Virus record (IMG/VR): IMGVR_UViG_3300025154_000350
Location: 1 to 26,554 of that record
Length of the DNA: 26,554 bases
Source of the DNA: a virus
Direction: 5' to 3' (one strand)
This document shows positions 6,198 to 16,166 of this stretch, piece after piece (position 1 is the stretch's first letter; every line of letters begins with the position of its first letter). Made by a program: the position numbers and the translations under genes. The notes under the pieces were generated by a model, which saw only the letters and a list, made by a program, of their open reading frames with translations, made no database searches and was not told where the DNA came from.

Positions 6198-6211
6198 TTA
6201 ATATGTCCTAT

Positions 6212-6238
6212 TTTCTATGTTATTACATAACATAGAAA
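6212..6238. promoter_or_regulatory. Perfect inverted repeat, candidate operator upstream of the HTH gene
   Basis: TTTCTATGTTA at 6212-6222 and TAACATAGAAA at 6228-6238 are exact reverse complements around a 5-base spacer. The repeat lies between the 41-codon membrane-protein gene and the HTH gene, 15 bp before the HTH start. The stem is AT-rich and has no T-run that would make it a good intrinsic terminator, so a protein-binding site (autoregulation) is the more natural reading. No clear -35/-10 pair was found around it. Confidence 0.55.
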
Positions 6239-6240
6239 TT

Positions 6241-6366
6241 TTATCGCATCCACGGGTCATCCCGCATCCCGTCCAGAATAGCATTAGCATCATGCCACGC
6301 CCAGACAACCAGGACGATGAAATAAATGGTCACAATTACCAGTAGTATTATCCCAAGTATCAGCAT
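6241..6366 (-). CDS. Small single-pass membrane protein (41 aa), unknown
   Basis: The ATG at 6366-6364 lies inside the last codons of rusA (ATGCTGA overlap) and the frame ends at TAA 6243-6241. The 41-residue product starts with MLILGIILLVIVTIYFIVLVV, close to a perfect membrane segment of about 20 residues, then has a short polar tail ending DDPWMR. The overlap with the upstream stop is the same coupling used throughout this operon, which supports it being a real gene. I do not recognise the family. A role at the host membrane (for example an accessory lysis or exclusion peptide) is possible but speculative. Confidence 0.55.
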   Translation of the reverse strand: MLILGIILLVIVTIYFIVLVVWAWHDANAILDGMRDDPWMR

Positions 6367-9904: not shown

Positions 9905-10518
9905 TTTATATCTCCCCATTGACTTGCCATCGCGTCTGCTATTCCCTGAAAGGTACGGCTTCTTTCGTGTCCACTTCTGTGTTTTCCTTCTGTAAAATAC
10001 CGTTTCTTTTTTCTTAGTGTGTTGCTAATGGTAAAAGGCTCTGGTTTTTTTGTATGGGTTTTTTCTTCAAAGAACGTGTCCTGTTCTGAATGGATAAGAA
10101 GCGGCAAGTTTTTTAACCACAACCAGGTTGTTTTTATATCCTCGTTTCCAAAATAATAGGGTTGAATTTCTTGAGAATATTTTGCAATAGTAGGACTGGC
10201 ACAACCTTTTGGGTTTTCAACGCATATTTTGTCAATAGGAGCTTCCCATAATTGCCTAAAAAAATCCAACGCATCAAGTCTTAATTTACACCTGCCTGGT
10301 TTATTCCAATGTGCTGTTCCGGCATAGCTAATATAAGTGCACGGTGGATGCGCTATCATCAAATCCCAACCATCCTTTATTATTTCCAAGACATCCCCTT
10401 GTAAATGCTGTCCTGGTATCTCGGTTGGCAATAGATCGCAACTCCACGCATCATGCCCTCGTTTTGCAAATGCCTCTCTGACTATTCCGCTAAACTCACA
10501 TGCAACCAACACTTTCAT
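9901..10518 (-). CDS. DNA cytosine-methyltransferase-like protein (phage type, atypical motifs)
   Basis: This 205-residue protein starts with the SAM-binding-like VLVACEFSGIVREAFAKRG and has DLMIAHPPCTYIS at 52-64 in the place of the cytosine-C5 methyltransferase motif IV Pro-Cys, and ENPKG at 101-105 in the place of the ENV motif VI. The C-terminal SRTFQGIADAMASQWG matches the end of the same phage family. The expected Gln after Pro-Cys is Thr and the target recognition region is very short, so activity on DNA cytosine is uncertain. It may protect phage DNA from restriction or make the 5-methylcytosine that a downstream modification pathway needs (see the glycosyltransferase at 18962). The gene is more AT-rich than its neighbours. 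Confidence 0.65.
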   Translation of the reverse strand: MKVLVACEFSGIVREAFAKRGHDAWSCDLLPTEIPGQHLQGDVLEIIKDGWDLMIAHPPCTYISYAGTAHWNKPGRCKLRLDALDFFRQLWEAPIDKICVENPKGCASPTIAKYSQEIQPYYFGNEDIKTTWLWLKNLPLLIHSEQDTFFEEKTHTKKPEPFTISNTLRKKKRYFTEGKHRSGHERSRTFQGIADAMASQWGDIK

Positions 10519-11111
10519 AATCTGCCTTTGCCTCCGAATTTATCAGCCAGCATTTTTATATCTGCTTTGGTTTGTTCTTCCATCGCCCTGTTGTCATAGT
10601 CTGTCAATGCCGGATGCTGCAAGGTCTCATCCCTGACCTGCTCGATAACTTCTTCATAAATTTTTAGGAAGCGCATCCTGGTAAAATCCTCTTTCCCGTT
10701 CTCTATCTCCAGACAGATTTGCGGGAAGCCACCCATGCGCCTTAGCGTCTCTCTTGTGGACGGGTGGTCCAGGATCGGAGAGCTGCCACCGCCTGATAAA
10801 TTGCCGGCAGGCATGCGCACTATTGATTCTCTGCACTCCGCCCAAACCGCGCTGCCTGTCTCAAGTCCGGTATTCTTTACACGCATCCCGGCAACCTTGC
10901 CACGTATCTCACCTGGGGATGGTGCAAAGGCGCGTCCGCTTTCAAGGCAGCAGGATTTGACTGCGAGCTGCAGTTCCTGGTATGGTACATCACCCAACAG
11001 ATCCTCTAACACGTCAATGGTTGTTAATCCACCCTCGATGATCGGGTTGTAGTTTGGAAATGCCAGTTTGATATACGCCACAATATTCGTTATGTCATTA
11101 CGCGTTGCCAT
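10515..11111 (-). CDS. Probable helicase loader / replication accessory protein (G39P-like)
   Basis: This 198-residue protein has GGAGGTGATCG before the ATG and overlaps the replisome organizer gene by 14 bp. The N-terminal 75 residues (YIKLAFPNYNP, then VLEDLLGDVPYQELQLAVKS, then FAPSPGEIRGKV) follow the pattern of phage replicative helicase loader/inhibitor proteins of the G39P type, a small helical domain that delivers hexameric helicase to the origin. The C-terminal half is charged and disordered-looking. Its direct neighbour is the predicted initiator, the usual pair in phages that recruit the host helicase. No helicase or polymerase is in the window, consistent with use of host replication enzymes. 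Confidence 0.6.
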   Translation of the reverse strand: MATRNDITNIVAYIKLAFPNYNPIIEGGLTTIDVLEDLLGDVPYQELQLAVKSCCLESGRAFAPSPGEIRGKVAGMRVKNTGLETGSAVWAECRESIVRMPAGNLSGGGSSPILDHPSTRETLRRMGGFPQICLEIENGKEDFTRMRFLKIYEEVIEQVRDETLQHPALTDYDNRAMEEQTKADIKMLADKFGGKGRL

Positions 11112-11841
11112 CGATCACCTCCGGTACTCTAAGTTTATTAAGCTTCGTGAAAAAGTCCTCGTTACTGTCTTTCTTTCCTGGCTTGCTCTGCCCTTGCTTC
11201 CAATTCTTCGCCGCCGTCTCCATACTGTCCATCAGCCCCATGCGGTTGGTCATGTTGATCTCTTTCTTCTCAGCCCATTCTGCGATACGTTGCGCTTGCT
11301 CGAACCCGACCGATTCAACCAGGGCGATCCATCGTTTTTGTTCTCTCTGATTATTGAAGTTCCCGAAGTGAGCAAAAAATTCAGCATCCGTTGGTGATTT
11401 TGATGATGTTGCCGTATTATTATTAATCTTTTCTATATCTTCCTCTGTATCTTCCTCTGTATCTCCATCACGTTTCGTTGCATCATCGTTTCCGTTGCGT
11501 TCCGTGTAGATACTTTTTTGTTTCACAATCCTGTGTTGTCGTGACCTTTCTGTTGATGGTACAGGTGCTTGACGTTCTGAAAACTTGCGGATCATAATAC
11601 CTTCTTCACATTCAACTAGAAAATTGATGGCTGCCAATTCATTCTTGACACTAAACCACCAATCAACGTCACGCCTGGTATAAAAGCAAACATCTTCTAA
11701 ACTTGGGATTACTCCATCACTACCGATCTTCTTACACAGTAACATCAATTCATACATTCCAACCCTTGCAGCATCAGATAACTTGTAATACTTCGGGTCG
11801 TCTAGGATCTCGACATATAATTTCAACCAGTAACCTGCCAT
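11098..11841 (-). CDS. Replisome organizer / replication initiator-like protein (winged-helix N-terminus)
   Basis: The start is ATG 11841, 5 nt after AAGGTGG; a GTG at 11850 is in frame but overlaps that site. The 247-residue product begins with WLKLYVEILDDPKYYKLSD and a following helix-rich segment ending in DVCFYTRRDV, the pattern of phage replisome organizer and DnaD-type N-terminal winged helices. A low-complexity acidic/Asn-rich linker (about 110-145) separates it from a C-terminal helical domain (REQKRWIALVESVGFEQAQRIAEWAEKK in two parts). It is the first gene behind the strong promoter and structured leader at 11864-11996, so its expression is probably regulated there. It likely binds the phage origin and recruits the loader encoded next. 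Confidence 0.65.
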   Translation of the reverse strand: MAGYWLKLYVEILDDPKYYKLSDAARVGMYELMLLCKKIGSDGVIPSLEDVCFYTRRDVDWWFSVKNELAAINFLVECEEGIMIRKFSERQAPVPSTERSRQHRIVKQKSIYTERNGNDDATKRDGDTEEDTEEDIEKINNNTATSSKSPTDAEFFAHFGNFNNQREQKRWIALVESVGFEQAQRIAEWAEKKEINMTNRMGLMDSMETAAKNWKQGQSKPGKKDSNEDFFTKLNKLRVPEVIDGNA

Positions 11842-11863
11842 AAATACCACCTTGTAAAAAGAA

Positions 11864-11962
11864 ACCTCGCTACAACATTTTGCTCTACCTTGTCACAGGT
11901 TCGAGAAGTTGTTGTTATAGCGAGGTGTCTTTAGAGCAAAAAACTTCTTGAACCCTGTGACA
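11864..11962 (-). promoter_or_regulatory. Structured 5' leader with three interlocked inverted repeats (c-b-a-c'-b'-a')
   Basis: Read on the minus strand, block c (11962-11942), block b (11941-11932) and block a (11926-11913) are followed by the reverse complements c' (11910-11891), b' (11887-11878) and a' (11877-11864). c/c' pair over about 20 bp with one mismatch and one bulge, b/b' over 10 bp perfectly, a/a' over 13 of 14 positions. Because the order is the same in both halves, the three helices cross one another and cannot all form in a plain secondary structure, so pseudoknots or a switch are implied. The transcript from the promoter at 11968-11996 would start at about 11961-11963, within a base of block c, and a' ends 10 nt before the Shine-Dalgarno of the replisome organizer gene. 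Confidence 0.7.
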
Positions 11963-11967
11963 TATTT

Positions 11968-11996
11968 AGTATATAACTTTCCGCACCCAATGTCAA
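11968..11996 (-). promoter_or_regulatory. Strong sigma-70/sigma-A-type promoter for the replication genes
   Basis: On the minus strand the -35 TTGACA (11996-11991, perfect consensus) is followed by exactly 17 bp and the -10 TATACT (11973-11968). It starts 3 bp after the stop codon of the membrane-protein gene at 12000. The predicted start site is near 11962, exactly where the interlocked leader begins. Confidence 0.8.
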
Positions 11997-11999
11997 GCA

Positions 12000-12299
12000 T
12001 CAAATCAAGATCCCAATTATGTAGATATTATTTACCACCGGGTACAGGGACACCAGGCAGGGCAGCCAGTACGCAGGAACCAGCCGTCTCAGCGCCGGGA
12101 TGTTTATTGGATATTCCAACACGCCCGTAAAAAAGGTTATCCACATCAGCTTGATCAGGTACGCTCTCCACATCGGCATACTGGAAAATATAGGGTTGCC
12201 TTCGATCATGCCGAAGTAAGACAGCCCGACCATAGTTGTCAGGATGTCAAGCATTTCGAGGAGTAGGAATAACTTGGTGAAGTTACGTAGTTTAAGCAT
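12000..12299 (-). CDS. Multi-pass membrane protein, DUF5658-like
   Basis: The ATG at 12299 overlaps the methyltransferase stop as TGATG. The 99-residue product has an N-terminal segment LLLEMLDILTTMVGLSYFGMIEGNPIF in which the LDxLTT then GxxEGNP pattern matches the small membrane family DUF5658, followed by two or three further hydrophobic stretches (YLIKLMWITFFTGVLEYP, WLPCLVSLYPVVNNIYIIGIL). The function of the family is not known. Its place between DNA modification and replication genes gives no clear clue; a membrane role in superinfection exclusion is one possibility. Confidence 0.6.
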   Translation of the reverse strand: MLKLRNFTKLFLLLEMLDILTTMVGLSYFGMIEGNPIFSSMPMWRAYLIKLMWITFFTGVLEYPINIPALRRLVPAYWLPCLVSLYPVVNNIYIIGILI

Positions 12300-12811
12300 C
12301 AAACTTGCTCCAAGTCCTGCCAGAATGTTAATTCTTTCCCAATATTTAAACCATTAGTAAACCATGCGGTTGCAAACCATGACCCAGAACCCTCACCAGA
12401 TGGGGTTTTAAAATTAACTCTTTTTGGAAGAAATATAATCTCTAAGCCATTCTCCCTAAATAAGTTTTGTCTCGTAGTGGTTTCAAGAGTTGTCAACGGC
12501 AGCAATAATGCAAACGGCAATCCTGTCTCGTAGCACCTTTCAAGGAATTTATTTTTTATTGTGTAGGGTGGATTTGTTATAATGCTCGTAACCCCATCTG
12601 GAATATCACAAGTGATAAAATCTGTTCCTGTCATTAAGTCAGTACCGATTGTCTCGATATAATAAGATAATCCCTTGACTAAGTTACCATCCCCGCAAGC
12701 ACACTCCCAAACAATACCATCTGGAATATATTGGATAAGTGGATTAAGAACCCATGCCGGCGTTTGAAAATCGTTGCTGTGCCCTTGCTGCATAGTAGTT
12801 GGTTTTGTCAT
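12299..12811 (-). CDS. Phage DNA adenine (N6) methyltransferase
   Basis: The start is placed at ATG 12811, two bases past the upstream stop with AGGAG 10 nt before it; ATG 12838 would add nine residues and overlap the neighbour. The 170-residue protein carries the SAM-binding motif I as WECACGDGNLV (35-45) and the catalytic motif IV NPPY at 80-83 (SIITNPPYTIKNKF), in the order I then IV. Its small size fits phage amino-methyltransferases of the Dam type. It would transfer a methyl group from SAM to adenine N6 in DNA, most likely to evade host restriction; a paired nuclease-like gene lies directly upstream at 12813-13292. The gene is AT-rich compared with its surroundings. Confidence 0.8.
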   Translation of the reverse strand: MTKPTTMQQGHSNDFQTPAWVLNPLIQYIPDGIVWECACGDGNLVKGLSYYIETIGTDLMTGTDFITCDIPDGVTSIITNPPYTIKNKFLERCYETGLPFALLLPLTTLETTTRQNLFRENGLEIIFLPKRVNFKTPSGEGSGSWFATAWFTNGLNIGKELTFWQDLEQV

Positions 12812-13724: not shown

Positions 13725-13814
13725 TTATTCCTGCTGCCCGCGCACATACCAGCCAGCGGCGAAACCAGCGAACACACAAATAAAGATCATGGCAAATAAC
13801 CAAGGGGGGATCAT
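13725..13814 (-). CDS. Tiny single-pass membrane protein (29 aa)
   Basis: The ATG at 13814-13812 overlaps the pentapeptide gene's stop as ATGA and the frame ends at TAA 13727-13725. The 29-residue product starts MIPPWLFAMIFICVFAGFAA, a membrane span of about 17 residues, then WYVRGQQE, a short basic-then-polar tail. Stop-start coupling and a clean hydrophobic core favour a real gene, but the shortness makes it easy to mistake chance for coding. No function can be assigned. Confidence 0.45.
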   Translation of the reverse strand: MIPPWLFAMIFICVFAGFAAGWYVRGQQE

Positions 13815-14443
13815 GTCTGCTCCTCGATAATCTTTGCTGACAGTTTGACCATCGCCTCGTAGTTGGACTTCAACCCGTATTTCAGGCGAATGGCTGCTAC
13901 GGTATTTTTTAGGTTCTCCTCACTGCAACCCAGGCGGATTACTGCCTTGCCGTCTTTATCCAGCCATGCGTAACCAATACGCTTTGTTTCGCCGATTGGA
14001 CCAAAAGACATTATTCCGTCGGCTTCGTACAGGTTGGCTCCGCTCAGGTTGGCTCCGCGCAGGTCGGCTCCGCTCAGGTTGGCTCCGCGCAGGTCGGCTT
14101 CGTACAGGTTGGCTCCGCTCAGGTCGGCTCCGCTCAGGTTGGCTCCGCGCAGGTCGGCTTCGTACAGGTTGGCTCCGCTCAGGTTGGCTCCGCGCAGGTC
14201 GGCTCCGCGCAGGTCGGCTCCGTACAGGTTGGCTCCGTACAGGTTGGCTCCGTACAGGTTGGCTCCGCGCAGGTCGGCTCCGCGCAGGTCGGCTCCGTAC
14301 AGGTTGGCTCCGTACAGGTTGGCTCCGTACAGGTTGGCTCCGCCCAGGTTGGCTTCGCCCAGGTCGGCTCTGGAACCGCCTTCCTCGTCACATAGCCATT
14401 TGATATGCAGGTCTAAGATATTTTTGATCTCGTTTGCGTTCAT
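13811..14443 (-). CDS. Pentapeptide repeat protein
   Basis: This 210-residue protein has 24 N-terminal residues, then 23 uninterrupted pentapeptides of the form A(N/D)LXX (about residues 26-140), such as ANLYG, ADLRG and ANLSG, and a C-terminal globular tail (IMSFGPIGETKRIGYAWLD and beyond). Pentapeptide repeats fold as a right-handed quadrilateral beta-helix about the width of DNA; members such as Qnr and MfpA bind DNA gyrase as DNA mimics. With 23 repeats this helix would have nearly six coils. A gyrase- or nuclease-targeting role is inferred from fold only. The coding DNA is extremely repetitive, so copy number is probably variable. Confidence 0.88.
   Translation of the reverse strand: MNANEIKNILDLHIKWLCDEEGGSRADLGEANLGGANLYGANLYGANLYGADLRGADLRGANLYGANLYGANLYGADLRGADLRGANLSGANLYEADLRGANLSGADLSGANLYEADLRGANLSGADLRGANLSGANLYEADGIMSFGPIGETKRIGYAWLDKDGKAVIRLGCSEENLKNTVAAIRLKYGLKSNYEAMVKLSAKIIEEQT
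14024..14368 (-). repeat. 23 tandem 15-bp repeats encoding pentapeptides
   Basis: The 345 bp are exactly 23 units of 15 bp, with almost identical codon use (GCCAACCTG or GCCGACCTG plus two variable codons). A second-order repeat of 75 bp (three ANLYG then two ADLRG units) occurs twice in succession. The repeats leave long open frames on both strands, which are by-products of the period and low codon diversity. Confidence 0.92.
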
Positions 14444-15260: not shown

Positions 15261-16166
15261 TTAGCTGCTGGCTTGCGCCTTTGCATCGTCCACGAACTGC
15301 TTGAGATCCTTATACATTGATCGGATCTTATCAATGGTCACGTTCTCAGGGATCTCCTCAGCGAAGAGACCGAGGGCAGCCGCGTCCAGTTCCAGTTCCT
15401 TGTACAGTCGGATGCCTTTTTCAATGGGGCTTTCCTTGACAGCTTCTTTCTTGGCTGCTGGCTGTGCTGGTGTGGCTGGTACATCCACAAATTGACCGGG
15501 CAGGAAGTCGTCAATGTCTTGGGTAAAGTATTCGCTCATTCCAGTTGCTATCAGGGTAGCGGCAACCAGAGCGCGCTTATCCGCCATTTTCAGGATCGTA
15601 TTTACCAGGTCGGATACATCCGGGTTCTTGACCTGCCCGACATCCTGCCCGGTGATCGCTGTATCTGCATCCGCAAACTTGGCACCGCATCCGCCTTTCT
15701 TGGCGAAGCACAACCACCCACCGCCGTACTCAGCCTTACCTTTGATGATGGTTGGCTTTCCACAATTCGGGCAAACCCGCTCACCGCCGCGATAGCGATA
15801 TTTCTTCTCCCATGAATTGCAGGAGCCGTCCACACTAGCTACCAGTTGATCGCCGCGCCAAAGATTGCAAGTGCGGCGATAAAAGAAAAATGGTTCGCCG
15901 CCGTGCTGTTCGCCTGTCCAATCATTGACCACCTCAGCGTCAACGAAGCGGGGAGATAAACCGAAAAACGATGTGGCTTTTTCGGCACCGGCTTTCAAAA
16001 GGGTTGGCTTGGTTGATCCTGGAATAATGCCATAATCAACGTCCGCTTTCATAATGCCGTCAATCAAATCTTTCTTCGCTTGATACGCTGCCAGCGCATC
16101 CTTGACGGTGACTACAGGAGCCATAAACCCTGCTTGTTGGCTGACTACGATCTCATTTCTTGTCAT
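15261..16166 (-). CDS. Conserved phage zinc-ribbon protein, possible recombination/ssDNA-binding function
   Basis: This 301-residue protein has GAGGAGG 7 nt before its ATG. The N-terminal domain contains DYGIIPGSTKPTLLKAGAEKA (44-64), then a zinc site CPNC (132-135) with C153 and C160 (WLCFAKKGGCGAKF), then KNPDVSDLVNTILKMADKRALVAAT (180-204). This order is familiar from a widespread phage family in recombination/replication regions, usually called hypothetical. The NTILKMADKRA stretch loosely recalls annealing proteins, but I cannot place it in RecT, Erf or Rad52. The C-terminal part is a Pro/Ala-rich linker followed by a helical tail. A DNA-annealing or ssDNA-binding role is inference. Confidence 0.6.
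   Translation of the reverse strand: MTRNEIVVSQQAGFMAPVVTVKDALAAYQAKKDLIDGIMKADVDYGIIPGSTKPTLLKAGAEKATSFFGLSPRFVDAEVVNDWTGEQHGGEPFFFYRRTCNLWRGDQLVASVDGSCNSWEKKYRYRGGERVCPNCGKPTIIKGKAEYGGGWLCFAKKGGCGAKFADADTAITGQDVGQVKNPDVSDLVNTILKMADKRALVAATLIATGMSEYFTQDIDDFLPGQFVDVPATPAQPAAKKEAVKESPIEKGIRLYKELELDAAALGLFAEEIPENVTIDKIRSMYKDLKQFVDDAKAQASS

Follow-up and report, generated by a model that had tools for sequence, protein, structure and literature searches.

A recurrent phage leader RNA with crossing helices as a candidate transcription attenuator

A stretch of viral DNA of 26,554 nucleotides (IMG/VR virus record IMGVR_UViG_3300025154_000350, positions 1 to 26,554; hereafter the window) carries, between a predicted promoter and a replisome organizer gene, three sequence blocks that are followed in the same order by their reverse complements. 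The helices that such blocks can form cross instead of nesting, and the question raised by the locus is what this arrangement may do at the start of a phage transcript. A first-pass annotation had read the region as a leader RNA under a consensus promoter, its crossing helices calling for pseudoknots or alternative folds, and had proposed for it a part in the control of replication genes, with a DNA role as the main alternative. We show herein, from sequence, the layout of the leader, its promoter, its U-tract, the adjacent Shine-Dalgarno sequence and its recurrence. As to its role, we see an even chance that it is a cis-acting transcription attenuator RNA, in which termination, a topological obstruction and a trigger would each play a part.

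Layout of the leader and its promoter

The features of the window leader (W) and of the genes behind it are as follows.

11968..11996, minus strand: sigma-70 type promoter TTGACA-N17-TATACT, 11/12 consensus matches
11942..11962, minus strand: block c, TGTCACAGGGTTCAAGAAGTT, 5' end of the predicted transcript
11932..11941, minus strand: block b, TTTTGCTCTA, inverted repeat with b'
11913..11932, minus strand: block a, AAAGACACCTCGCTATAACA, 5' arm of a terminator-like stem
11891..11910, minus strand: block c', AACTTCTCGAACCTGTGACA, inside the loop of a/a'
11878..11887, minus strand: block b', TAGAGCAAAA, inverted repeat with b
11858..11877, minus strand: block a', TGTTGTAGCGAGGTTTCTTT, 3' arm of the terminator-like stem
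11856..11864, minus strand: U-tract, TTTCTTTTT, directly 3' of the GC-rich part of a'
11847..11853, minus strand: Shine-Dalgarno sequence AAGGTGG, 5 nt 5' of the ATG at 11841 and identical in R1 (see below)
11098..11841, minus strand: replisome organizer, 247 aa, first gene behind W (phrog_3926, E=1e-8; phrog_186, DnaD-like helicase loader, E=1e-6)
10515..11111, minus strand: G39P-like helicase loader/inhibitor, 198 aa, second gene (PF11417, E=3e-4, over the curated cut-off)

On the minus strand from 11962 to 11858, the blocks run c-b-a-c'-b'-a', a crossing order, just as the first-pass annotation had described them. The c/c' helix, estimated there at about 20 bp, comprises 19 Watson-Crick pairs with one bulged base and one A-C mismatch. 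The 10 perfect pairs reported for b/b' are present but are reduced to 9 if a also forms, because base 11932 is common to b and a. For a/a', given earlier as 13 of 14, the pairing stands and its extent had been understated, since 18 Watson-Crick pairs and one G-U pair occupy 19 of 20 positions. The terminator character of this stem had been overlooked; a' runs into the U-tract TTTCTTTTT, and a/a' is therefore a candidate intrinsic terminator. The last block had also been placed 10 nt from the Shine-Dalgarno sequence. The actual distance is shorter, with 2 nt between the end of the U-tract at 11856 and the start of AAGGTGG at 11853.

The consensus promoter named in the annotation was recovered, and its predicted +1 is the G at 11961 on the minus strand, in keeping with the earlier view that transcription starts at block c, which begins at 11962. 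Upstream of it, the gene for a DUF5658 membrane protein (window 12000-12302), which is very conserved in relatives (92-96%), ends 3 nt before the -35 element. Other short inverted repeats are also present near the leader. The three-helix score of the 170-nt region of W was 88, higher than that of any of 1000 dinucleotide shuffles (maximum 63), and the claim that the arrangement lies beyond chance is thereby upheld.

Recurrence in related phages

Relatives were reached through the C-terminal part of the initiator and through neighbouring genes, and comprised three IMG/VR contigs. With W, these contain five leader instances in four related phages: R1 and R2 in G001, R3 in L003 and R4 in L012. 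The order c-a-c'-a', the promoter and the U-tract are kept in 5/5 instances, in sequence that is largely unrelated, and every instance exceeds 1000 of 1000 shuffles. The idea of a structured leader under a strong promoter is thus borne out by relatives in which the pairing is kept. The complete layout expected of related phages was found in part: b/b' is kept in W, R1 and R2 (3/5) but is missing from R3 and R4. Promoters on the same strand and at the same place have 12/12 consensus matches in R1, 11/12 in R3, 9/12 with a TG in R2 and 12/12 in R4. Block c starts exactly 6 nt after the last -10 base, that is, at -1/+1, in W, R1, R2 and R3; R4, in which c is not at +1 and the contig ends in the U-tract, is a looser member. 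Wherever the sequence continues (4/4 instances), a Shine-Dalgarno sequence lies 0-6 nt 3' of the U-tract.

In R1 (L002) all three helices are kept, with c TGTCACAGTTC..GGCTTT, b TTTATTCC and a GAAGACGCCCGCCCCAATG, each with a matching partner. Between W and R1, the only two of the five instances that align, 8 pairs changed on both sides, 2 on a single side without loss of pairing, and 8 were gained or lost; these are counts rather than a formal covariation statistic, the leader being present in four genomes. Scanning revealed a second leader on the same contig.

L009 19744-19636 (contig IMGVR_UViG_3300025154_000239), minus strand: R2 leader with its own promoter, c, b (one G-U pair), a and U-tract

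R2 is located directly 5' of a GIY-YIG/T5orf172 gene, and has no sequence similarity to R1 even though both belong to the same genome. At the place matching R2, the window (6200-6260) carries a simple hairpin and another small gene. This contig carries portal-region sequence at both ends (L009 1-1654 and L010 13335-14810) that matches the window at 21.3-23.4 kb with ~88% identity at each end, indicative of redundant or chimeric contig ends. R3 has a c helix of 21 pairs and an a helix of 18 pairs, is unrelated to W in sequence and lacks b. The contig of R4 matches the window at 93% identity as far as the promoter and then enters an unrelated leader with c-a-c'-a'. That contig, IMGVR_UViG_3300025009_000542, ends exactly in the leader U-tract (L012 7189-7190); strains perhaps differ at a hypervariable spot.

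No sequence core or repeated motif is common to the five instances, and the genes behind them are of different kinds. R1, like W, precedes a replisome organizer, while R2 precedes the GIY-YIG/T5orf172 gene and in another relative the first gene behind the leader is a 64-aa ORF. The assignment to replication gene control is consequently not supported, and a replication-only role was rejected on account of the position of R2. The replisome organizers themselves (window 11098-11841; L002 3593-4351; L003 3494-4309) have a conserved C-terminal half, about 88-90% identical, joined to unrelated N-terminal domains of three kinds (phrog_3926-like, mycobacteriophage/Gordonia-like and Geobacillus E2-like), which amounts to a modular domain swap. 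Since these N-terminal domains come from different lineages, the leader is not bound to one initiator type.

To what extent such leaders occur elsewhere was approached by several searches, each covering a limited part of the collections. When both strands of 518 kb from 53 viral records were surveyed (U-tract required, score cut-off 70), 7 hits reached 70 or more, all in records of the leader-bearing phage group, compared with ~0.7 per shuffled copy. Fourteen loci (181 kb) from other phages that have related replication or early genes yielded nothing above shuffles, and a promoter-pattern scan that brought up 49 viral stretches revealed no new member. In Rfam 15, no family matched the leader above its gathering score, in agreement with the earlier description of an undescribed RNA. 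Two opposite-strand hits to microRNA precursors were sub-threshold (29.5 versus 60 bits and 16 versus 70) and are attributable to the inverted repeats of the leader; microRNA-precursor identity was rejected. DNA homology to known phages and plasmids did not go beyond chance, and two scans of GTDB genomes gave no host prophage. Because only the topology is conserved, sequence searches would miss such leaders. At the protein level, no close relatives were found in named phages for the initiator, the helicase-loader-like protein, the DUF5658 protein, the lysin, the portal or the GIY-YIG protein; the 198-aa protein has one distant match, in Moorella phage MCACPph1. Elsewhere in the window, the repeat array of a pentapeptide-repeat protein (13811-14443; ANLYGADLRG...) opens long frames on the opposite strand too, and a 301-aa protein (15261-16166; phrog_10048), the product of a widely exchanged early gene, shares 45% identity with a relative in Myxococcus phage Mx4.

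A possible attenuator and its rivals

As in a transcription attenuator, a GC-containing stem is followed directly by a U-tract in 5/5 instances, and lies upstream of a gene start in the 4 instances where one is seen. Possible alternative pairings, c/c' and b/b', are present upstream. Any competition with a/a' would come about by crossing, since c and a have no base in common, and in the best helices a pairs only with a'. The c and a stems are nearly equal in energy: for W, R1, R2, R3 and R4, respectively, the c duplexes have -24.5, -23.9, -22.7, -33.7 and -21.4 kcal/mol and the a duplexes -26.1, -25.9, -28.3, -24.9 and -25.7 kcal/mol. R3, which is without b, has the strongest c of all, roughly equivalent to c and b of W combined. 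When growing transcript prefixes were folded, with nested folds only, c/c' was the best fold from about 62-70 nt (from 76 nt in R3), and a/a' took over only at about 94-108 nt, when the 3' arm of the terminator emerges; both steps came later in R4. By a length count, b and a cannot both be complete, in that the linkers reach 12-19 Å where 28-45 Å are needed. By the same count, c and b are sterically possible together, and so are c and a with b single-stranded, each stem being wound by 1.5-1.9 turns.

An attenuator of this kind would begin with transcription from 11961, block c forming the 5' end of the transcript. As c' and b' emerge from the polymerase before a', c/c' and then b/b' could pair first and would make up the read-through fold, a/a' being the stop fold. 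With c/c' held, a/a' might be prevented from winding into a full stem, because its 5' arm would be trapped in a closed loop, the polymerase would still hold its 3' arm, and b directly adjoins a on both strands. The polymerase would then proceed into the Shine-Dalgarno sequence and the gene. If c were instead kept off c', by a protein, by a second RNA or through the speed or pausing of the polymerase, a/a' and the U-tract would form and transcription would end after about 105 nt. The exclusion would be topological, given that c', though enclosed by the loop of a/a', uses none of the bases of that stem. We infer this mutual exclusion of c and a purely from kinetics and topology, the two stems being sterically compatible by the length count. 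A fixed ratio of stop to read-through, set without any trigger, is also possible. A bolder proposal, which we regard as doubtful, is that of a natural RNA knot acting as a switch: two stems of ~16-21 pairs cross, and the closing of the first before the second threads would decide termination, so that control would be exerted by topology. If c and a formed together, the leader would be a natural knot candidate.

Candidates for other modes of attenuation were sought around the five instances, and no trigger, no antisense promoter and no conserved leader peptide came to light. No short ORF is conserved across the instances (by eye), and a leader peptide was rejected. An alternative terminator, composed of upstream read-through RNA, c and the T-run after c, was discarded because upstream shuffles match the observed pairing in 16-118 of 500 cases, inconsistently.

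The attenuator has to be weighed against four other explanations. That the arrangement arose by chance, or is an ordinary terminator whose extra complementarity is accidental, might be thought of in intergenic AT-rich DNA, which is rich in short inverted repeats and has several others nearby; it is barely credible given that all five instances surpass every one of their 1000 shuffles and that the survey hits are confined to the leader-bearing group. A DNA element, in which inverted sites bound by the replication initiator (an origin) or forming an operator array of the promoter take the place of RNA stems, would fit the position immediately 5' of the initiator gene in W and R1, the variation among relatives of both the leader and the initiator N-terminal domain, and the frequent occurrence of inverted repeats near +1 in operators. 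Against it, one copy precedes the GIY-YIG gene, and no repeated motif is common to the instances, as would be required of sites for one common protein; both points make a replication-linked DNA role unlikely. Moreover, the order is always promoter, c, a, c', a' and U-tract, then a Shine-Dalgarno sequence where the sequence continues, and the paired sites stay complementary within each element while their sequence changes between relatives. The strand also bears on the matter. Among non-Watson-Crick positions, G-U outnumbers A-C by 13 to 4, a weak lean as strand evidence because the helices were called on the sense strand, and the duplex energy sums (-278.6 sense, -261.8 antisense) give the sense strand a modest advantage that is not seen in every helix. 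The strand of the promoter (5/5), the U-tract (5/5), the Shine-Dalgarno sequence (4/4) and, weakly, the G-U excess favour an RNA role, and we hold a DNA element to be distinctly improbable.

Two explanations keep the RNA and change its task. The leader may be a free-standing small RNA of ~105 nt, bounded by the promoter and the terminator, with its compact or knotted fold as the actual product; it would work in trans or as a decoy, and the gene behind it would be served by leaky read-through or upstream transcription. All five instances do form a complete promoter-terminator unit, the genes behind them differ (replisome organizer, 64-aa ORF, GIY-YIG gene), and the stem sequences differ so much that the shape alone is kept. 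Nonetheless, the element is tied to the next gene by a Shine-Dalgarno sequence, which follows the U-tract within 0-6 nt in every instance with continuing sequence, and a search of the phage genomes for complementary targets gave the leaders themselves and otherwise matches of chance size; we consider a small RNA rather unlikely. Alternatively, a paired first base and a knotted leader could shield phage mRNA from 5'-end-dependent decay, the U-tract being incidental or a weak terminator. The start of c at -1/+1 in W, R1, R2 and R3 would indeed leave the very 5' base paired. However, a plain 5' hairpin would suffice for this without crossing stems, c of R4 is not at +1, and a U-tract in 5/5 instances next to a balanced a/a' stem goes unexplained, which makes a shield very unlikely.

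Relation to known systems and implications

In the fluoride, ZTP and preQ1 riboswitch classes, a leader pseudoknot precedes a terminator-like stem and the decision is co-transcriptional. In contrast to these, no conserved ligand-binding core was found in the five leaders, the genes behind them are not metabolic, and Rfam gave no match. Type III toxin-antitoxin loci (ToxI type) resemble the leader in consisting of a promoter, a pseudoknot-forming RNA, a terminator and then an ORF. The leaders differ in having no tandem repeats, and in being followed by a replisome organizer, a small ORF or a GIY-YIG protein gene in place of a ToxN-like toxin.

The attenuators of pT181 and pIP501 are similar in that a 5' leader before a replication initiator gene sets an intrinsic terminator against an upstream pairing. 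The pT181 anti-terminator binds the 5' arm of the terminator itself, and an antisense RNA serves as the trigger (PMC4878617). An anti-terminator complementary to the 5' arm is absent from the leader, in which c pairs with c' in the loop and c/c' uses none of the bases of a/a', and one copy lies before a gene that does not serve replication. No opposite-strand promoter site was found in 290-500 nt around W, R1, R2, R3 and R4, and pT181-like antisense control was rejected on that ground. The put RNA of HK022 likewise forms the extreme 5' part of an early phage transcript, and acts in cis without a known protein; it is about 70 nt long, has two stem-loops and a sequence common to its members, and binds RNA polymerase (PMC9378689). 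Unlike put, the leader has crossing stems and a terminator-like stem of its own at the end, and neither a pair of plain stem-loops nor sequence similarity was found among its unrelated members.

As judged from sequence, the layout of W, R1 and R2 corresponds to the ABCABC or 'pseudotrefoil' pseudoknot, which is known but uncommon (51 sequences in a set with 1939 structures; PMC3390330), while R3 and R4 correspond to ABAB. Among high-resolution experimental RNA structures, RydC was the first with a trefoil (PMC11218946), and RNA knots almost never occur in solved structures (PMC11218946, PMC5381007). Roughly 11 pairs is the stem length above which knotting is said to be possible (PMC5381007). 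In comparison with the ABCABC class and RydC, two of the three crossing stems of the leader, at 16-21 pairs, exceed that length, and they would sit at a transcription decision point.

The five instances illustrate that a putative regulatory RNA family can keep a crossing order while its sequence changes. If the leader is an attenuator, it would control termination without the usual overlap between anti-terminator and terminator. If the knot switch is real, neither sequence nor covariance searches would reveal such leaders, which may then occur more widely than is known. For the question of whether natural RNAs truly knot, the leader offers a compact natural sequence in five instances with largely independent stems.
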